A stretch of 64,000 nt of DNA from an uncultured Desulfovibrionaceae bacterium (GTDB lineage Bacteria > Desulfobacterota > Desulfovibrionia > Desulfovibrionales > Desulfovibrionaceae). The stretch is from the NCBI GenBank assembly GCA_949741925.1, contig CATJOY010000043.1, forward strand, positions 1-64,000, in the 5' to 3' direction. Below are positions 8,881 to 62,903 of the stretch, in pieces. The position numbers and the translations under genes were made by a program. A model generated the notes under the pieces. That model was not told the DNA's origin, did no database searches, and saw only the letters and a program-made list of their open reading frames with translations. Each line of letters starts with the position of its first letter. The stretch's first letter is position 1.

Positions 8881-9495
8881 ATGAAATATATTTTTCTTCT
8901 TTGTGCTCTCGTCTTTTTCTGCCCTATTGCTAAGGCCGGGGCAGCGGCCTCCCCCCTCGCCGCAGTGCGGAACGTGCAGCGGGCCATTGAAACAATGGAT
9001 TTAGATCTGGCCTCCGCCTCCCTTGATAGTAACGCCCTTATCCAAAGCGCCGTTGCCGAAGCCCTCGCCCACCCCGAGCTGCTCAGACAAGCCGGGGAGA
9101 ACCCGGTGATGGCCCTGATTCTGGCGGGATACAACAGCGGTCCTGAGGCTAGAGAAGCCGTTCAAACCATGTTGGCCACGGAGATCCATAATTTCTTCGC
9201 CTACGGTATTCGCTCCGGGGCCTTTGCCGGTAAACTCGGCGCCGGCGCAACCCCGGGAGACCCGGGCCTGTTCGGCACAGTCTTCAGGGGCAACGAGCGG
9301 GATATAAAACGCTTAAGCGAAGCTCGCCTGCTGGAAGAAAAAGGCAACACCGCCCGGGTTTCCGCTACCCTCTATGACGGTATGAGCAAAAAAAGCTATC
9401 CCCTGGAATTGGGGCTGGTCAGGGAAAGCGGCGTCTGGCGGATCAAGGAACTGCGTAACCTGAAGGCCTTATTACCCCCTGGAGGCGCTCGATGA
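8881..9495 (+). CDS. Exported protein of unknown function
   Basis: 204 residues beginning with a clear signal peptide (MKYIFLLCALVFFCPIAKA, cleavage about 19-22), so periplasmic. The body has alternating helices and a C-terminal segment (ARVSATLYDG, then SGVWRIKELRNL) resembling the end of DUF2939-like or NTF2-like periplasmic proteins; that link is weak. It starts 4 nt after ribF and its TGA overlaps the next ATG (ATGA), so it is probably translated together with the binding-protein gene that follows. Function not recognised. Confidence 0.75.
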   Translation: MKYIFLLCALVFFCPIAKAGAAASPLAAVRNVQRAIETMDLDLASASLDSNALIQSAVAEALAHPELLRQAGENPVMALILAGYNSGPEAREAVQTMLATEIHNFFAYGIRSGAFAGKLGAGATPGDPGLFGTVFRGNERDIKRLSEARLLEEKGNTARVSATLYDGMSKKSYPLELGLVRESGVWRIKELRNLKALLPPGGAR

Positions 9496-10481
9496 ACATC
9501 CGGAATCTGTGGCAAACGGCCTGCTGCCTCGCAGCGCTGGCAGTACTGCTTGGGCCGATGCTCCGGGAGGCCCGCGCCGCCTCTTGGCCGCCGCCAAAAC
9601 TTGGCATCACCTTACCCTTCAGTGCCGGAAACGGCGCCGCTCTGCTGGCCGAACTCCAGGCCGGAATTCTAAACCGGCAGTATGGCACAGAGGTCTCTTT
9701 GCGCTTTATGCCCGGCCGGGGAGGGGTAAACGCCTGGGCCAATATTAATACTGCAGTAACAGATGGCTCCACCTTGACCGCCGTTGAACTGCCGGGCCTG
9801 CTCTTGCGGGCTGATCAACGGGAAAACGGCATCAACCTTGCGAATCTGCGCATCTGCCACCTCAGCGCCCGCGCTCCGGTGGCCCTATGGGCGCCTTTAG
9901 ACAGCCCGATTACCGATCTTGACGCGTTTGCCTCCGCTGCCAGAGACCTTACAGGAGCCATGCTGGTAGCCGGACCGGGCAGCCTGACCCCGGCCGCTCT
10001 GGCCTCCCGGCGCCTTGACCGGCTGTTGGGGATTCAGACTGTGTATTCACCGTACATGGGCACTCTGGAAGCCGCGGCCGCCTTTGTTGAAGACCCGCGC
10101 ATCAAAGCGCTGTGGGCGGATGCCCTGGCCTATCCCGAATTGATCGGAAAATTCAGGCCCATTGCCGTTGCCGGCGAAGGCCGCGCCGCGCCGTTTCCGC
10201 AAACCCCGACCTTCCGCGAATTGGGGTATGACCTGGTGCGCTATAACTATAGAGGCTATGTCCTTAGCGCCGGCACGCCGGAGCCGATGATTCTGGCTGT
10301 CTATCTAACCCTTGAAGAAGTACGGAAAGATCCTGGTTTCAGCGGGGCCGCATCCGCTATCGGTTTTGATCTTCCGGAAATTCCTTTGGTGGACCTGGCC
10401 GGCCTAGCTGCCGCTCTCGGCGATGAGGCCAGGGAGGAAGCCGTCAACCTGGATATTCTGCCCCCGGCGGCCCTGCCGTGA
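9492..10481 (+). CDS. TctC/Bug-family tripartite tricarboxylate transporter substrate-binding protein
   Basis: A 329-residue periplasmic binding protein with signal peptide 1-29 (ending REARA). It has the TctC layout: LGITLPFSAGNGAALLAEL in place of the usual beta1 phosphate-like site, MPGRGGVNAWANI near residue 76, and APFPQTPTFRELGYDL near 235, a strong family signature. Family members capture carboxylates for a TctAB permease, or act as sensors when orphan. No tctA or tctB lies nearby. Overlaps the preceding exported-protein gene by 4 nt. Confidence 0.85.
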   Translation: MNIRNLWQTACCLAALAVLLGPMLREARAASWPPPKLGITLPFSAGNGAALLAELQAGILNRQYGTEVSLRFMPGRGGVNAWANINTAVTDGSTLTAVELPGLLLRADQRENGINLANLRICHLSARAPVALWAPLDSPITDLDAFASAARDLTGAMLVAGPGSLTPAALASRRLDRLLGIQTVYSPYMGTLEAAAAFVEDPRIKALWADALAYPELIGKFRPIAVAGEGRAAPFPQTPTFRELGYDLVRYNYRGYVLSAGTPEPMILAVYLTLEEVRKDPGFSGAASAIGFDLPEIPLVDLAGLAAALGDEAREEAVNLDILPPAALP

Positions 10482-18657: not shown

Positions 18658-18681
18658 ATGCACGCCAAAGGAAAGCCATGA
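18658..18681 (+). CDS. Possible seven-codon leader ORF overlapping the NtrX-like start
   Basis: ATG at 18658 encodes MHAKGKP and its TGA overlaps the ATG of the regulator gene (CCATGA). An AAGGAT site lies 8 nt upstream. It may be a translational-coupling leader, but so short a frame can arise by chance. Confidence 0.3.
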   Translation: MHAKGKP

Positions 18682-20153
18682 CATCCAAAGATACGCCGCA
18701 TCCTACCGCGCCCCCGCCAAAGGCCAGGATACTGGTTGTGGATGATGAAGAAGGCATCCGTTTCTCCTTACGCGGCATCCTCGAAGATGAAGGATACGAG
18801 GTACTGGATGCCGAGAGCGCCGAGAAAGGGCTGGAAATACTGTCTGCGGAATCCGTGGGTCTGGTTTTTTTAGATATATGGCTTCCGGGCATGGATGGCT
18901 TGATCGCCCTGACCCGCATCCTCCAGGTTCAGCCTCAACTTCCCGTCCTGATGATCTCCGGCCACGGAACCATTGAAACGGCAGTTACTGCCATTAAAAA
19001 AGGCGCTTACGACTATATTGAAAAGCCGCTCTCCCTGGAAAAGGTCGTTATCGCGGCCCAGCGGGCCCTTGAGTTCCACGCCTTGCAGCGGGAAAATTTG
19101 GCCTATCGCCGCGGCATCAAAGCGACCACCCCGGGAGTTTCCGGCGAATCGCCCAAAGCCAGGGAACTAAGCGAACAGATCGCTAAAGTGGCGCCTCTTG
19201 ATACCTGGGTGTTGATTACCGGCGAGAACGGCACAGGCAAGGAAATCACAGCCAAAGCAGTATACGCCGGCAGCCGCCGCAGCGACCGCCCCCTGGTGGA
19301 AGTTAACTGCGCCGCAATCCCCGAAGAACTCATCGAAAGCGAACTTTTTGGCTACGAAAAAGGCGCGTTCACCGGGGCTGAAAACGCCCGCAGCGGCAAG
19401 TTTGAACTGGCCGACCGAGGCACCATCTTTCTGGATGAAATCGGCGATATGAGCCTGAAAACCCAGGCCAAAATCCTGCGCATCCTTCAGGAGCAGCGTT
19501 TTGAACGGCTCGGCGGCAGGCGCACCATACATGTGGATGTGCGGGTCATCGCAGCCACCAACAAAAACCTTGAAGAGGCCATCGCCCAAGGGCTCTTTCG
19601 GGAAGACCTCTATTACCGTCTTAAAGTTTTTCCCATTGTTGTCCCTCCGCTTAGGGAGCGTTCTTCCGACATCCCGCTGCTGATTCGGGAATTCAGCGAA
19701 CGCTTTATTCGCGAGCACGGGCTGACCCCCTTTGTGCTCACGCCGGAAGCTCTGGCGGTTATGGAAGCCTACCCCTGGCCCGGAAACATCCGGGAACTCA
19801 AGAACATTGTCGAACGGATGCTGATTCTGCACGGAGGCAAAGAGATCAGCCCTGACCTTCTGCCGCCGGAACTCCGTGAATGCGGGGCTTCCTCTTCGGG
19901 ACCGGGCGGACACCATGCACCGCAGGGAGAACCATCGCCCGACGAAACCGACGCCATCCTCCTTCGTATGTCCGACCTGGGCAACGACGACCTCAAAAGC
20001 GCCCGCTCGCTCTTTGAAGCCCGTTTCCTTAAAGCCAAGCTGCGCCAATACGGCGGCAACATCAGCCGGCTAGCCGAGGCCGTGGGGCTTGAGCGCAGTT
20101 ATTTATACCGCAAACTGCGCAGCGTGGACGTGAACGTACAGGATGAAAAGTAG
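18678..20153 (+). CDS. Sigma-54-dependent response regulator, NtrX-like
   Basis: 491 residues: receiver domain with D66 as phospho-acceptor, AAA+ domain with Walker A GENGTGKE at 182-189, a canonical GAFTGA loop at 229-234 and Walker B FLDEIG at 251-256, and a Fis-type helix-turn-helix. The C-terminal stretch [18 protein letters not shown] followed by [22 protein letters not shown] is the hallmark of NtrX-type regulators rather than NtrC. The usual NtrY kinase is not adjacent. AAAGGAAAG precedes the ATG; a tiny upstream frame overlaps it. Confidence 0.93.
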
Positions 20154-20251: not shown

Positions 20252-20833
20252 TCAACGTAGAAAGTCAATCATCCCCCGCAGGGCTTCCCGTGCGGCCGAC
20301 AGGCGGATCTGATCCCGACTGCCGGAAAAAGAATACCGTACGGCTTTTGTCCTGACGGCGCCGCGAGTACAGCTGCAAGGCTCCCTCGCCGGCTCATCCT
20401 GAGTTGCCCAGCCTATCCAGACTGTGCCTACCGGCTTTTCTTCACTGCCGCCGTCCGGACCGGCCACACCGGATATAGCCAGTGACGCCCCACAAAAGCC
20501 CTCCTGCCCGGCATCCGCCGTACCCCCTGTATAGGCCAGCGCCCCCACGGCCATGGCCGTAACCGTTTGCTCGCTGACTGCCCCGTGCTCTTCCAACACC
20601 TTTCCGGGCACGGCCAGGAGACGTTGCTTGAACTCGTTGGAATAAGCGACAATGCCGCCTTTTAGCCAAGCGGAGCTCCCTGCCAAATCCGTGCACAATG
20701 CAGCCACCAGCCCGCCGGTACACGATTCGGCGGTTATCAATATACGCTTCCGGGCAATCAAAAGATCCGCCAGTCCGCGCACAAGCGGCACAAAAACTGC
20801 TTCTTCGGGCCTGGAACAATAAAATGCGTTCAC
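20252..20833 (-). CDS. pncC: Nicotinamide-nucleotide amidase, PncC/CinA C-terminal type
   Basis: Deamidates nicotinamide mononucleotide to nicotinate mononucleotide in pyridine-nucleotide recycling. Signatures ITAESCTGG near residue 33, LKGGIVAYSNEFKQRLL and ISGVAGPDGGSEEKPVGTVWI. It is a stand-alone amidase domain with no CinA N-terminal domain. The start is a GTG at 20833, because AAGGAGG lies 6 nt before it; the ATG further upstream (20881) would put the ribosome site inside the gene. 193 residues. Convergent with the NtrX-like gene. Confidence 0.9.
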   Translation of the reverse strand: MNAFYCSRPEEAVFVPLVRGLADLLIARKRILITAESCTGGLVAALCTDLAGSSAWLKGGIVAYSNEFKQRLLAVPGKVLEEHGAVSEQTVTAMAVGALAYTGGTADAGQEGFCGASLAISGVAGPDGGSEEKPVGTVWIGWATQDEPAREPCSCTRGAVRTKAVRYSFSGSRDQIRLSAAREALRGMIDFLR

Positions 20834-20952
20834 GTCAATCCTCCTTATCCGGGCACTCTGCTCACACCAGGGAAACAACACCGCGGCCCGGCGTTCGCCC
20901 CTCCGAAGAGCAGGCCGGCCTTTTTAGGGCCTGAAAAACCGGCTGTTGTCCG

Positions 20953-21211: not shown

Positions 21212-22369
21212 ATGAAACGTCTCGGCGTTCTTTTAAGCGTGCTGCTTCTTACCGCCACGGCCTTGCCGTGCGCGGCGGCCACCGTGCGCGAACCCATGCG
21301 GGTGGTCTACGGTTTTGACCGCGAATTTCCGCCTTTTTCCTTTGAGGAGCCCGGGGGCAAGGCCACCGGTTTTGAAGTTGAGCTGCTGGAAGCCATTTTC
21401 CGGGGCAAAGTCAATTTGGTGACCCGGCCTCTGCAATGGGATATGGTTCCCCTGGAGCTCTCTTCGGGCACCATCCACGTCACCAGCGGCATGGTCCAAA
21501 CCGAACAGCGTTCCAAGCTCTATACATTCTCCCAACGGCCGACGCTTCCTTTACCGATACGTCTGTTTACTAAAACTTACAACCGCTTCCCCAATATCAC
21601 CTTTCTGCGGGGTCAGACCGTTGCCGTGGAGCAAGGGTCATATCAACACCGCCTCCTGCAAAACTTCGGCGGCATCAATATTAAGACCTATGCCGACAAG
21701 GTATCGCCCCTGCGGGCGCTGTTCAACGACGAGGTAACCGCTTACTGTGGCCCGGTCCAGACAGCCTACTACCTGATCAACAAGCTGAACTACACCTCCA
21801 TTACCACCATGGGCACGCCTCTCGGGATTACGGAAATGCGCTTTGCCGTGAACCGCGACCGGGGCGATATCTTGAAAATGATCAACGACGGCTTCAATGA
21901 GCTGGTTGCCAACGGCGAATACGACCGAATCTACCGCAAATGGTTTGTCCGGGATCTCTCGGAGGCAGAGACCAAAAAACTTGCCGAGGAAGCGAACAAG
22001 GCCCTGCTCTCCGCCTATGCGCCATACAGCGGCAAAGGCTTCGGCGCAGCCGTTCTGACCGCAACGGGCAACGTTTATAGCGCCTGCAACGTAGAAAATG
22101 CTGATACCCGGCTCTCCAGTTCCGCCGTCGTTAATGCCGTCAGCCGGGCCATAGCGGCTGGAGATCTGGAAATCCTCGGCGTTCTCTGCGTCAATGATCA
22201 GGAAAAACTTGTCTCTCCGGCCCCGGATGAGTGCCAGTTCCTCTATGAATTCGGGCGGGGCATCCTGGCGGTGGTTCCCGATGGCGCCGGGGGACAAAAA
22301 ACCGTAATGATGAGCGACATGCTTCCCAACCCGGTCATCGGCAAAACCAAAACCTTAAGCGTACAATAA
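21212..22369 (+). CDS. Periplasmic solute-binding protein (SBP_bac_3) fused to a catalytically dead cytidine-deaminase-like domain
   Basis: 385 residues. Signal peptide 1-23, then a family 3 binding domain about 28-248 (PPFSFEEPGGKATGFEVELL at 40-59, DRIYRKWF at 238-245). Residues about 255-378 align end to end with tetrameric cytidine deaminase: AYAPYSGKGFGAAVL at 268-282 and CNVENA at 292-297 retain the fold and the ribose-binding NxE pair. The zinc Cys and catalytic Glu of CAE become S304 and V306; the PCxxC cysteines become A337 and E340. It therefore cannot be a standard zinc deaminase. Export to the periplasm suggests nucleoside or nucleoside-like ligand binding, which is inference. No permease genes are adjacent. 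Confidence 0.88.
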   Translation: MKRLGVLLSVLLLTATALPCAAATVREPMRVVYGFDREFPPFSFEEPGGKATGFEVELLEAIFRGKVNLVTRPLQWDMVPLELSSGTIHVTSGMVQTEQRSKLYTFSQRPTLPLPIRLFTKTYNRFPNITFLRGQTVAVEQGSYQHRLLQNFGGINIKTYADKVSPLRALFNDEVTAYCGPVQTAYYLINKLNYTSITTMGTPLGITEMRFAVNRDRGDILKMINDGFNELVANGEYDRIYRKWFVRDLSEAETKKLAEEANKALLSAYAPYSGKGFGAAVLTATGNVYSACNVENADTRLSSSAVVNAVSRAIAAGDLEILGVLCVNDQEKLVSPAPDECQFLYEFGRGILAVVPDGAGGQKTVMMSDMLPNPVIGKTKTLSVQ

Positions 22370-22803
22370 TCCTGTTTCCGCTAAAAGCCGCACATCCCCC
22401 CTGCGGGATGTGCGGCGTATCGCGCTCCGGGGCCTTTCTCCGCCCCCCCCCTCCCTAAGCAGCAGGGATGACAGCACTACCAAAATCAGCTATTTCGGGA
22501 CGGTTCTCTATTGGAATGCTCCCCCGGACCTAACGGCAAAATAAAATGGTGCCTGTATTGCCGGGCGGATAGCGGGAGCCGCCGCCGAAGCGTTGTTTTT
22601 TAGGGCAAAACGCTCTCTGTAAAAAGATATTGCCCCGCGTCAGGTATATTTTCACCGATTATGATGGGGATCGGCATAAAACGCCGCTATCCGGCCAAAA
22701 GAAAAATCGTTTCCAGCCTATGCCTTCTGGAAAGTTGCCCTTCCCCCAAAAACACGGGCGTTATGCACTACGCCCCGTGGGCGCTGTGGAGTGTGACCAA
22801 ACC
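22370..22803. other. Long leader region of the activase gene
   Basis: 434 nt. A terminator-like hairpin is at 22387-22416 and a smaller one, AGCGTT/AACGCT, near 22590-22612. An in-frame open stretch from 22630 lacks protein character before MSESPLFLGLDVG, so it is taken as leader. Confidence 0.5.
22387..22416 (+). terminator. Hairpin after the binding-protein fusion gene
   Basis: GCCGCACATCCC/GGGATGTGCGGC, 12 bp, 6-nt loop, starting 18 nt after the stop. No U-run follows. Confidence 0.65.
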
Positions 22804-25800
22804 ATGAGTGAAAGCCCGCTTTTCTTGGGCCTTGACGTAGGATCAACCACTGTTAAGGCCGTTATTACCGATGACGCCGATACCCTCCTTTTTTCCCGTT
22901 ACCAACGGCATTTTTCTGAAGTGCGGGCCACCTTGGCCACACTTTTGGCCGAATGTCTCGAGACCTTCCCCAACCATGCCTGGCGTTTTGCCATCACCGG
23001 CTCCGGGGCCATTTCCCTGGCTGAGGAACTTCATCTTGCCTTTGTCCAGGAAGTAATCGCCGCGAGCCTGGCCATCCGCAGACGTATTCCGCAGGCCGAT
23101 GTTGCCATTGAACTCGGCGGCGAGGACGCCAAAATCACCTTCTTCACCGGCGGTATAGAACGCCGGATGAACGAAACCTGCGCCGGGGGCACAGGAGCCT
23201 TTATCGACCAGATGGCCTCCTTTCTGGATACGGATGCCGCCGGTCTGGATATATTGGCCGCCAGGCACACCACCATCTACCCCATTGCCTCGCGCTGCGG
23301 GGTTTTCGCCAAAACAGACGTGTTGCCGCTGCTCAACGAAGGCTCGGCGCGGGAAGATATCGCCGCCTCTATTATGCAGGCGGTGGTTGATCAGACCATT
23401 AGCGGTCTGGCCTGGGGACGGCGCATTACGGGAACGGTTGTTTTTCTCGGCGGTCCCCTGGCCTTTTTACCCTCCTTGCGCGAACGGTTCATCAAAACCT
23501 TACACCTCTCTCCAGAGGAGGCTGTTTTCCCTGAACACGGCGAATACTTCGTGGCTTTGGGCGCCGCGGAGTTCGCCCGCAATTCCGGAACAGCCGGCAA
23601 CGCCCCTTTGTGCAGTCAGGAGGAGATGCTGGAACACTTGGCCAAACTCCGCGCCAGCGCAAGTCGGGGCGAAATCAGGCACCTGCCGCCGCTGTTCGCT
23701 AACGCCGACGAGATGGCTGCATTCAAGGCCCGCCATGAACGGGAAAAAGCCGCACGTTTCCCACTGGAAGAGTACCACGGAGACGCTTGGCTCGGCCTGG
23801 ACAGCGGTTCCACCACCTTCAAAGCCGTGCTCATCGATGACAAGGGGAGGATTCTCTACAGTTTTTACGACTCCCACAAGGGAGATCCCCTGCCCGCGGC
23901 CCTCAGAGTGCTTGAAGATATTTACAGCCGCCGTAACAATGATCTGGTCATTCGGGCGGCCACTGTCACCGGCTACGGCAGCGGCCTGATTAAGGCCGCC
24001 ATCCGGGCGGATATCGATGAAGTGGAAACCGTGGCCCATTACACAGGAGCCGCTTTTTTCCAGCCGCAGGTTTCCTATATTCTCGATATCGGCGGGCAGG
24101 ATATCAAATGCATGCGCATTCGCTCCCATGCCGTGGACCGCATCCAGTTGAACGAAGCCTGTTCGGCAGGCTGCGGCTCCTTTATCGAGACCTTCGCCAA
24201 ATCCCTGGATATGCCGCTTTCCCACTTTGTAACAGCCGCCTTGGAAGCAACGGCCCCGGTGGATCTCGGCACCCGCTGCACCGTGTTCATGAACTCAAAG
24301 GTCAAACAGGCGCAAAAAGACGGGGCCTCGGTGGGCGATATCGCGGCGGGCCTTTCCTATTCAGTCATCCGCAACGCCTGCTATAAGGTGATTAAAATCG
24401 GCGATCCGGAAGAACTCGGCCGGCACATCGTGGCTCAAGGAGGCGCCTTTGCCAATGATGCGCTCTTGCGCGCCCTGGAACTGACCATCGGCCGCGAGGT
24501 CGTCCGCCCCGATATCTCCGGCCTGATGGGCGCATTCGGTTCCGCCCTCATTGCCAAGGAACGCGGCCCGGAAAACGGCGAAACCAGGCTCCTCGGTCCC
24601 GAGGATATCGCCGCCTTTTCCAGCAAAACCACAACGGCCCGCTGTAACCGCTGCACCAACACCTGTCTGCTGACCATCTCACGCTTTGCGGATGGTTCCC
24701 GTTTCATTTCGGGCAACCGCTGCGAACAGGGGCTGGGCATCCGGAACAGCAGTCCGGCCTTACCCAACCTCTACAGTTGGAAATACAAACGTCTTTTTGA
24801 CCCCTATGAACCTCTAAGTCCGGAAAAAGCCAAACGCGGCGTGCTCGGTATTCCGCGCACCCTGAACATCTATGAGAACTACCCGCTCTGGTTCACCCTG
24901 TTTACGGCCTTAGGCTATCGGGTAGAAATTTCTTCAGCCTCATCTAAGGAAATCTTCCAGCTCGGCTACAGCACCATCCCCTCGCAGACCGTCTGTTATC
25001 CGGCCAAGCTGGCCCACGGCCACGTTTTGGATCTGCTCCAGAAGAATGTGGATGCTGTCTTCTTTCCCTGCATTCCCTTTGAAAACAAGGAGTTCCAGAG
25101 CCAGGTCAACCATTATAACTGCCCGGTGGTCATCGGCTATCCGGAACTTCTGGCCAACAACATCCCCGAGATCAGGGAAAAAAATATTCCCTTTATCCAT
25201 AGCTTCCTGCCCATGGATAAAGAGAGCCTACCCCGCCGCCTGCACGATACCCCCTTTTTTGCGGATATCCCCCTGCCGGAATTAACCGACGCCGTGCGCC
25301 TGGGCTTTGCAGAACAAGAAAAATTCAAAAACGATGTCTGTCGGGCCGGCGAAAAGGCCCTGGAAGACCTGCAAGCCAGGGGGGCGTTCGGCATTATCCT
25401 GGCCGGACACCCCTACCATACAGACCCGGAAATTCATCATGGCATAGCCGAGTTGGTCACTTCCTGCGGCATGGGCGTGCTTACGGCAGATTCTGTGGCG
25501 CACCTGATGCCGGACCCGGGGCTCCTTCGCGTAGTGGATCAATGGACCTACCATGCCCGGCTCTATCGCGCCGGCGCCTATGCCGCGGGTAGCGATTCTC
25601 TGGCGGTGCTCCAGCTTGTTTCCTTCGGCTGCGGCCTGGATGCCATCACTTCGGATCAGCTTGAAGAAATCATGATGGTCAAAGGGCGCCTTTACGCTCA
25701 GATCAAAATCGACGAAGGCTCAAACCTGGGTCCTGCCCGCATCCGTATCCGTTCACTCCTGGCCGCGCTTAGAGAACGCAAGAACCGGGTTGATCCGCCG

Positions 25801-27045
25801 CCGCGCATTCCGATCTATACCGGTTCCACGCCCTTTACCGAAAAAATGAGGAAGACCCATACCATCCTCATTCCCCAGCTTTCACCTATCCATTTCCAAT
25901 TTCTGGAAACCGTGTTCAGTTCCTGCGGCTACAAGGTCACACAGTTGCCTGAAGTCAGCCGGGCCGCCTTGGAAACCGGTCTGCGCTATGTCAACAACGA
26001 CGCCTGCTACCCGGCCATTGTGGTGGTCGGTCAGCTTCTGCACGCCGTACGCTCAGGGGAGTTCGATCCGAACAAGGTAGCCCTGATGATTTCCCAGACC
26101 GGAGGCGGTTGTCGGGCCACCAACTACATCGCTTTTCTGCGCAAGGCATTGGTCTCCTGCGGCCTGGAGCATATTCCCATTATTTCCTTTAATGTGGGTG
26201 GCATGGACAAAAACCCCGGCTTCCGCCTTTCGGGCAGGCTGCTGCGCATGGCCATCATGGCCGGGTTTTACGGCGATGCTATGATGCGCGTTATTCACAG
26301 GGTTCGCCCGTATGAGTTGAATCCCGGCGATACCAACCGCTTGGCCGAAACATGGGTCGGACGGCTCAAACAGACCATCGCCACCGGCCGGCCCTTCCTC
26401 TACCATATGGACATGCTGGCCATGATCCACGACTTCGACACCATGCCGCTCCGGGATATCGAACGAAAACCCAGGGTCGGTTTAGTGGGAGAAATTCTGC
26501 TCAAATACCATCCGGACGCCAACAACCGAGCCGCCGAAGTGGTGGAGACGGAAGGAGGCGAAGCCGTGATGACCGATCTCATGGATTTTGTGCTGTATTC
26601 CTTCTATGATGATGTCTATCGCTACCGCTATCTAGCCGGTTCCTGGAAAAACTACGCCATTGGTATCTCCACCATCGCCTTTCTGGAGTGGTGCCGCTGG
26701 TCGCTCCGTTGGGGGCTCCGCAAAAGTCAACGTTTCAGCGCGCCTTTGCGTTTTCGCGCCCTGCGCCAGAAAGCCAAAAGCCTTATTTCCCTCGGACACC
26801 AGACCGGGGAGGGTTGGCTGCTGGCTGCCGAAATGGTGGAAATGCTCGAGACCGGCTGCAATAATATTCTCTGTATGCAGCCGTTCGGCTGCCTGCCCAA
26901 TCACATTACCGGCAAGGGGCTGCTCAATGAGCTCAAGCGCCGCTACCCCCAAGCCAATATCGCTGCTGTGGACTACGACCCCGGCGCCAGCGAAGTAAAC
27001 CAGATCAACCGAATTAAATTGATGATGTCCTGCATCAAGCAGTAA
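22804..27045 (+). CDS. Giant 2-hydroxyacyl-CoA dehydratase activase fusion (BadF/BadG/BcrA/D type)
   Basis: 1413 residues. Two ASKHA ATPase modules: the first starts LFLGLDVGSTTVKAVITDD with MNETCAGGTGAFIDQMA near residue 122; the second starts AWLGLDSGSTTFKAVLIDD near 328 with LNEACSAGCGSFIETFA near 449. The Cys in each of these motifs normally holds the [4Fe-4S] cluster at the dimer interface. A cysteine cluster CNRCTNTC follows near 616, then a DUF2229 region (about 670-900, SQTVCYPAKLAHGHVLDL) and a dehydratase-subunit-like C-terminus (about 1020-1400, YVNNDACYPAIVVVGQLL, ISQTGGGCRATNY). Such proteins are widespread in anaerobes; substrate unknown. The ATG at 22804 is chosen because homology begins there; its ribosome site is poor. 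Confidence 0.9.
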   Translation: MSESPLFLGLDVGSTTVKAVITDDADTLLFSRYQRHFSEVRATLATLLAECLETFPNHAWRFAITGSGAISLAEELHLAFVQEVIAASLAIRRRIPQADVAIELGGEDAKITFFTGGIERRMNETCAGGTGAFIDQMASFLDTDAAGLDILAARHTTIYPIASRCGVFAKTDVLPLLNEGSAREDIAASIMQAVVDQTISGLAWGRRITGTVVFLGGPLAFLPSLRERFIKTLHLSPEEAVFPEHGEYFVALGAAEFARNSGTAGNAPLCSQEEMLEHLAKLRASASRGEIRHLPPLFANADEMAAFKARHEREKAARFPLEEYHGDAWLGLDSGSTTFKAVLIDDKGRILYSFYDSHKGDPLPAALRVLEDIYSRRNNDLVIRAATVTGYGSGLIKAAIRADIDEVETVAHYTGAAFFQPQVSYILDIGGQDIKCMRIRSHAVDRIQLNEACSAGCGSFIETFAKSLDMPLSHFVTAALEATAPVDLGTRCTVFMNSKVKQAQKDGASVGDIAAGLSYSVIRNACYKVIKIGDPEELGRHIVAQGGAFANDALLRALELTIGREVVRPDISGLMGAFGSALIAKERGPENGETRLLGPEDIAAFSSKTTTARCNRCTNTCLLTISRFADGSRFISGNRCEQGLGIRNSSPALPNLYSWKYKRLFDPYEPLSPEKAKRGVLGIPRTLNIYENYPLWFTLFTALGYRVEISSASSKEIFQLGYSTIPSQTVCYPAKLAHGHVLDLLQKNVDAVFFPCIPFENKEFQSQVNHYNCPVVIGYPELLANNIPEIREKNIPFIHSFLPMDKESLPRRLHDTPFFADIPLPELTDAVRLGFAEQEKFKNDVCRAGEKALEDLQARGAFGIILAGHPYHTDPEIHHGIAELVTSCGMGVLTADSVAHLMPDPGLLRVVDQWTYHARLYRAGAYAAGSDSLAVLQLVSFGCGLDAITSDQLEEIMMVKGRLYAQIKIDEGSNLGPARIRIRSLLAALRERKNRVDPPPRIPIYTGSTPFTEKMRKTHTILIPQLSPIHFQFLETVFSSCGYKVTQLPEVSRAALETGLRYVNNDACYPAIVVVGQLLHAVRSGEFDPNKVALMISQTGGGCRATNYIAFLRKALVSCGLEHIPIISFNVGGMDKNPGFRLSGRLLRMAIMAGFYGDAMMRVIHRVRPYELNPGDTNRLAETWVGRLKQTIATGRPFLYHMDMLAMIHDFDTMPLRDIERKPRVGLVGEILLKYHPDANNRAAEVVETEGGEAVMTDLMDFVLYSFYDDVYRYRYLAGSWKNYAIGISTIAFLEWCRWSLRWGLRKSQRFSAPLRFRALRQKAKSLISLGHQTGEGWLLAAEMVEMLETGCNNILCMQPFGCLPNHITGKGLLNELKRRYPQANIAAVDYDPGASEVNQINRIKLMMSCIKQ

Positions 27046-62194: not shown

Positions 62195-62269
<75 letters not shown>

Positions 62270-62748
62270 AAATATATACGATGTACCTTCCCTACTTGGA
62301 GGGGCTGCAGAGCTATTTTCCGCTCTGCCTGTAGACATCGTCGCCGCATTCCAAAATCCTATCCGGAATCACGACGAGTTCTGTGTGTATACTGACTGCC
62401 TCCCTGCGTCAAGCGTTTTACGCCTCTCCAACGAAATTTTTCTCTCCTTGCCTCGAACGGCAAAGTTACCTTCCCACGTTCTCGAGCCCCTAAGCAACAA
62501 AACAAAGCCGCTTACAGGGCCTGATCTGCTCCAGAGTCTCCGCCCCACGTAGTTCATAACACCATGCTCCCGCGGCCTTACGGAAACATCGGAAATGATC
62601 CGCCTTTTGCCAAGCGGCGGCCCCACAAAAAATCAAAGAAGGAAAACACACGGCCGCGCCCCCGGAGAGCGGATTCAGCAGTCCCTAAAGACAATGCCCT
62701 GATTTTCCTTATAAAGGAAAATCAGGGCATTTACGGTAATCATTTCTT
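62270..62748. other. Spacer between tRNA genes
   Basis: 479 nt. It contains GCAGAGC/GCTCTGC near 62313 and an 18-bp perfect hairpin at 62693-62731. No gene recognised; the promoter of the left tRNA-Gly must lie here. Confidence 0.5.
62693..62731 (-). terminator. 18-bp perfect hairpin after the tRNA-Cys gene
   Basis: AATGCCCTGATTTTCCTT and its exact complement separated by 3 nt (ATA). It lies 18 nt beyond the end of tRNA-Cys on the minus strand and probably terminates or stabilises that transcript; the following T stretch is weak. Confidence 0.75.
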
Positions 62749-62822
<74 letters not shown>

Positions 62823-62828
62823 AAAAAA

Positions 62829-62903
<75 letters not shown>

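Follow-up and report, generated by a model that had tools for sequence, protein, structure and literature searches.

Pseudoenzymes are well known inside cells. In the family of solute-binding proteins (SBPs), an Arg/Asp pair that binds the alpha-carboxylate and alpha-amino groups of the ligand is the signature of amino-acid binding. It is established that ligand-loaded SBPs activate chemoreceptors, kinases, cyclic-di-GMP enzymes, and Ser/Thr kinases (PMC9602780). In cytidine deaminases (CDAs), docking places Asn42, Glu44, Ala46, and Tyr48 on the ribose oxygens, and Glu55 is the proton shuttle (PMC9897663).

In a stretch of 64,000 nucleotides from an uncultured, sulfate-reducing Desulfovibrionaceae bacterium (the window), we analyzed a gene that joins an SBP domain to a CDA-like domain. 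The latter resembles tetrameric CDAs (TIGR01354 / PRK05578; B. subtilis 1JTK) in its fold over the whole 120-residue domain, and shares with them the AYxPYS and GAAVLT segments, the NVEN region, and the terminal LLP region. Unlike these enzymes, it has neither the zinc ligands nor the catalytic Glu, is predicted to be exported, lies C-terminal to an SBP, and carries a new motif, EFGRGxL. The SBP half is close to GlnBP (1WDN), T. maritima ArgBP, and AncQR (4ZV1) in its fold (VIA Z about 24-27), ligand Arg100, and apparent signal peptide, but differs from these amino-acid SBPs by the absence of the amino-group Asp throughout, by the extra C-terminal domain, and in that no linked ABC genes were found. 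With the soluble SBPs that activate receptors (PMC9602780) it has in common a predicted export and the lack of a linked permease, and its basal members lie beside a dCache receptor; the differences are that the candidate receptor class would be a SpoIIE phosphatase, and that an almost certainly dead enzyme domain has been added. Finally, one of the closest folds to the SBP half is the SBP-like sensor domain of a histidine kinase (3H7M), which belongs to the kinase chain, whereas the domain studied here would be a free exported protein. We found no description of the SBP/pseudo-CDA architecture in the open-access literature.

Domain architecture and predicted fold

The features of the gene are the following (window coordinates and strand):

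21212..22369, +, whole gene of the SBP_bac_3/pseudo-cytidine-deaminase fusion, predicted to be exported, 385 aa (open reading frame with ATG start)
21212..21283, +, signal peptide MKRLGVLLSVLLLTATALPCAAAT, by inspection (positively charged n-region, hydrophobic core, cleavage motif of the AxA type)
21305..21946, +, SBP_bac_3 ligand-binding domain, residues 32-245 (Pfam)
21962..22336, +, pseudo-cytidine-deaminase domain, residues 251-375 (fold of tetrameric CDAs, lacking the zinc ligands and the catalytic Glu)
22088..22096, +, remnant of the CDA ribose motif, N293-V-E295 (Glu295 near-invariant, Asn293 variable across fusions)
22121..22129, +, dead zinc/catalytic site 1, S304-A-V306 replacing C53-A-E55 (alignment with CDAs)
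22220..22231, +, dead zinc site 2, A337..E340 replacing C86..C89 of PCxxCRQ (alignment with CDAs)
22247..22267, +, fusion-specific conserved motif E346-F-G-R-G-x-L352 (column conservation)

SBP_bac_3 (PF00497) matches residues 32-245 with an E value of 1.4e-22 and 80.3 bits, against a gathering score of 26.4 (Pfam). The C-terminal part is matched by dCMP_cyt_deam_2 (Pfam, residues 252-317, E 3.3e-6), and by the NCBIfam models PRK05578 cytidine deaminase (residues 251-374, E 7.4e-21) and TIGR01354 (residues 256-375, E 1.7e-16), the last of these at about 60.6-63.5 bits, below its curated cut-off of 113.65. A phmmer search with the last 130 residues also retrieved tetrameric CDAs from the PDB (2d30, E 1.1e-12; 1jtk, 4.8e-12). 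By inspection, an N-terminal hydrophobic segment is also present in most homologues with a usable start. The homology of the domains is far above chance, and 45 distinct homologous fusions were read.

An assembly artefact or an accidental fusion of frames was considered as well, and is ruled out by the 45 distinct open fusions in independent genomes.

Modelled as a single chain with AlphaFold2 from an alignment of 19 sequences, the fusion gave a pLDDT of 88.5 and a pTM of 0.82. The deaminase fold expected in the original prediction was obtained when the C-terminal domain was modelled alone (AlphaFold, single chain, pLDDT 91.9): this model aligns with 3mpz at 1.4 Å across 124 residues (VIA-align, Z 21.8), and with mycobacterial and Streptomyces CDAs at 1.2-1.5 Å across 118-125 residues (Z <=21.8), and Foldseek likewise returned tetrameric CDAs. 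For the SBP half, the matches are glutamine- and arginine-binding proteins as well as the solved structure 3h7m, with Z near 24-27. No templates were used for modelling, but homologous sequences were given as input, and the agreement of the model with homology is thus not an independent test.

Loss of the catalytic site

By our own count, the fusion is present in 47 of 288 Desulfovibrionaceae genomes, belonging to 16 genus groups. Four fusions were found outside this family: one in a complete genome from another family of the same phylum (G326), two on MAG contigs that are labelled Armatimonadota and whose taxonomy is uncertain (L094 and L095), and one in a Syntrophaceae MAG (L097). The L097 copy has one in-frame stop (L097:847-849) with both halves otherwise intact, which may reflect decay of this copy, an error in sequencing, or readthrough.

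Residue-by-residue comparison was carried out on 49 fusions, i.e. 45 distinct ones from Desulfovibrionaceae plus the four from outside. In a single alignment, the equivalents of C53, E55, C86, and C89 are intact in all 32 free CDAs and in none of the 49 fusions. The original prediction had described a binding protein fused to a CDA domain devoid of catalytic residues, with S304, V306, A337, and E340 at these positions; the open reading frame, the two families, and the four replacements are as it described them, its numbering (including N293 and E295) is correct, and the loss of zinc residues extends to every fusion surveyed. The domain is almost certainly catalytically dead, and has probably been so since before the family diversified.

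The fate of the nucleoside pocket is more graded. The NxE motif had been taken as kept, and this holds for the Glu44 equivalent, Glu295, which is present in all 32 free CDAs, all four outside fusions, and 43 of the 45 Desulfovibrionaceae fusions; but the Asn42 equivalent, Asn293, although kept in the same free CDAs (32/32) and outside fusions (4/4), is Asn in only 27 of the 45. The positions of Phe24 and Tyr48 are occupied by aromatic residues or His in nearly all free CDAs. Their equivalents are partly kept in the outside fusions, and both are kept in L160; they are mostly replaced in the Desulfovibrionaceae fusions, where in most cases they are no longer aromatic, and the C-terminal LPxF region has become LPxP in many of these. 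The simplest reading of these sequences is that the metal site would have been lost first and the base pocket later.

In the 288 Desulfovibrionaceae genomes, a free tetrameric CDA never occurs together with the fusion, and no genome has more than one such domain; at the genus level, this exclusion is not significant (P about 0.09, calculated by hand).

Some divergent deaminases were also observed. Two short ones from one family of the phylum (L211 and L212) have an NVKAN motif and intact zinc residues, and align with the CDA profile only beyond about position 16-20. Three other matches to the CDA profile (G001:C84:23196-23486, G096:C69, and G156:C72), one of which is in the window's own genus, start from model position 22, lie in longer open frames, and were missed by the C-terminal query of the fusion.

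Origin of the fusion

In phylogenetic analysis, 27 CDA-like domains of the fusions form one clade with respect to 25 CDAs (support 100/99.9), and the SBP halves of the fusions also form one clade (support 98/94). The trees speak for a single fusion event. If the zinc-site columns are left out, the long-branch sequences L211 and L212 fall beside another long branch, L010, but one clade of fusions is still not rejected (p-AU 0.14). Given the support for one clade of CDA-like domains (100/99.9), several independent zinc losses are not favoured.

Ligand site of the SBP half

Of 48 sequences, 47 retain Arg100, the counterpart of the Arg that binds the carboxylate in amino-acid SBPs. The position of the alpha-amino Asp (reference AncQR, 4ZV1) is Pro181 in the window protein, and is occupied by Pro in 30 sequences, Ala in 11, Leu in three, Thr, Gln, and Met in one each, and a gap in one; it is never Asp (0/48). 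Since the Asp is absent, an ordinary alpha-amino acid is not a safe guess as ligand. The protein had been labelled an amino-acid-type SBP, but the label is doubtful in view of the Asp position.

Genomic context and proposed role

The following genes accompany the fusion in the window:

20252-20881, CinA, neighbour, divergent from the fusion gene
18678-20153, sigma-54 response regulator, neighbour
22630-27045, CoA-enzyme-activase-type protein of 1471 aa, directly downstream (two BcrAD_BadFG ATPase matches plus DUF2229)
9492-10481, TctC-type SBP, farther out

Also farther out are LpxC, CorA, a glycerophosphotransferase, fumarase, and asparaginase, and three tRNA genes lie close together on the minus strand at 62198-62903, two of them with equal scores. 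As originally stated, no permease or chemoreceptor is a neighbour of the fusion, and among linked genes we found neither a permease nor an ATPase gene adjoining it in the window. No known RNA element was found upstream of the gene, the scan for promoters and terminators gave nothing above shuffles, and the plasmid and phage collections gave SBP-level matches only.

Neighbours vary across 20 Desulfovibrionaceae loci; the most frequent are CinA (near the fusion in 9/20), glucokinase (directly after it in six), a PilZ gene (after it in four), and housekeeping genes, and Usp and cytidylate kinase also occur. We found no conserved functional operon across these loci, and no permease or receptor gene recurs beside the fusion among the linked genes of the 20 loci.

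The deep-branching relatives have a different context, known from two MAG contigs, whose taxonomy is uncertain, and from a third contig that has only the SBP. In both L094 and L095, a gene coding for a dCache-HAMP-SpoIIE phosphatase lies directly upstream of the fusion. In L094, the fusion is followed by a cupin and then by a HATPase_c_2-STAS protein; the L095 contig ends after the fusion, and includes upstream three other SBP genes (NMT1, ABC_sub_bind, and SBP_bac_3), with no permease seen. The SBP-only contig, L099, encodes a sister SBP without the CDA tail (support 95/82), in an operon of the arrangement HAMP-SpoIIE / SBP / cupin / 5TM-LYT-SpoIIE / HATPase / STAS, whose cupin is, by eye, like that of L094. 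As this tail-less SBP is found in a like operon, the signalling operon seems older than the fusion.

The window's own genome has an unlinked pair coding for a STAS protein and a PDC-HAMP-SpoIIE-HATPase protein on another contig (L229:2474-8296). SpoIIE proteins are abundant across Desulfovibrionaceae, with or without the fusion, and this pair consequently does not identify a partner. It is divergent from an amidohydrolase, by eye cytosine-deaminase-like, and a putative transporter. The operon cupin was also tried as a marker of an unlinked copy, but it occurs in 10 of 59 relatives and is absent from the window's genome, and was thus uninformative.

The best-supported reading, to which we give even odds, is that the fusion is an exported sensor subunit originating from a SpoIIE partner-switching operon, with the dead deaminase fold serving for assembly or docking. 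The protein would be exported to the periplasm, as inspection of its signal peptide suggests, and its family-3 solute-binding domain would capture a small, probably carboxylate-bearing ligand. The dead CDA fold would have been kept as a structural module, most likely for oligomerising the binding protein or docking it to a membrane receptor, a role to which the ancestral enzyme's tetramer interface would lend itself, and Glu295 may still allow it to bind a small molecule rich in hydroxyls. Once loaded with ligand, the protein would function in sensing rather than transport, signalling through a transmembrane receptor whose type may be indicated by the early-branching relatives, i.e. a dCache-HAMP-SpoIIE phosphatase leading to a HATPase/STAS partner switch. 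A sensing role, already suggested in the original prediction, is made more likely by the signalling operons of these relatives. Against it, no recurrent linked receptor was found in the Desulfovibrionaceae neighbourhoods examined, and the cupin is missing from the window's genome. Only tentatively would we propose that the metal-free CDA fold is an exported assembly module, and perhaps a second ligand-binding module, of a SpoIIE partner-switching sensor that reads two ligands.

Alternative explanations

It is doubtful that the fusion is a periplasmic sensor of a nucleoside or nucleoside-like compound, in which the dead CDA pocket would bind without turnover while the SBP half would bind a second ligand or relay the state. 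Glu295 corresponds to the ribose-contacting Glu44 of CDAs and is retained in 43/45, the four outside fusions keep both Asn42 and Glu44, L160 also has the Phe24 and Tyr48 equivalents, and docking to CDAs puts three of these residues, with Ala46, on ribose oxygens (PMC9897663). However, Asn42 is replaced in 18 of the 45 Desulfovibrionaceae fusions, the residues at Phe24 and Tyr48 are mostly non-aromatic, LPxF has changed to LPxP in many, and no nucleoside transport or salvage gene adjoins the fusion gene. The variable Asn293 and the frequent loss of the two aromatic equivalents leave nucleoside binding via NxE, as originally proposed, not well supported.

We also consider it unlikely that the protein is simply the uptake SBP of an ABC transporter whose genes lie elsewhere, with the CDA-like tail as a stabilising or oligomerising add-on. 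The closest curated models are indeed amino-acid ABC transporter SBPs, and orphan SBPs are common. However, no polar amino-acid permease adjoins the gene in the window or recurs near it in the 20 loci, none of the sequences read has the amino-group Asp, and the basal relatives adjoin signalling genes.

It seems to us very improbable that the CDA-like domain acts as a secreted enzyme by some other chemistry that needs no zinc. The clade-specific EFGRGxL motif, of which only the EF part is conserved in free CDAs, and the conserved Glu295 would fit such an enzyme, but no new conserved cluster of Cys, His, or Asp replaces the lost site, and the conserved columns are mostly Ala, Gly, Pro, and hydrophobic.

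Pairwise omega of the CDA-like domain, for pairs with computable dS, is 0.01-0.22, from below that of the SBP half to about four-fold, and only the sign of this result is safe because several dS values are near saturation; it indicates purifying selection on the dead CDA domain. That the fused deaminase is a functionless relic in decay, to which the lost catalytic residues and the in-frame stop of the one MAG copy might point, is hardly credible and is rejected on dN/dS and wide conservation: the 45 distinct Desulfovibrionaceae copies read are open, the fusion is kept in 16 genus groups, and omega lies well below 1.

Significance

We found no precedent in the open-access literature for a metal-free CDA fold kept outside the cytoplasm within an SBP. 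The fusions make up a graded series, where those outside Desulfovibrionaceae lack the metal and catalytic site but have much of the nucleoside pocket, and those of Desulfovibrionaceae have lost most of the pocket too, which opens the transition from an enzyme to a structural or sensing module to direct testing. Moreover, the family draws attention to SpoIIE partner-switching operons equipped with solute-binding proteins of their own. Taken as a whole, the family looks like a case of an enzyme fold reused for sensing.
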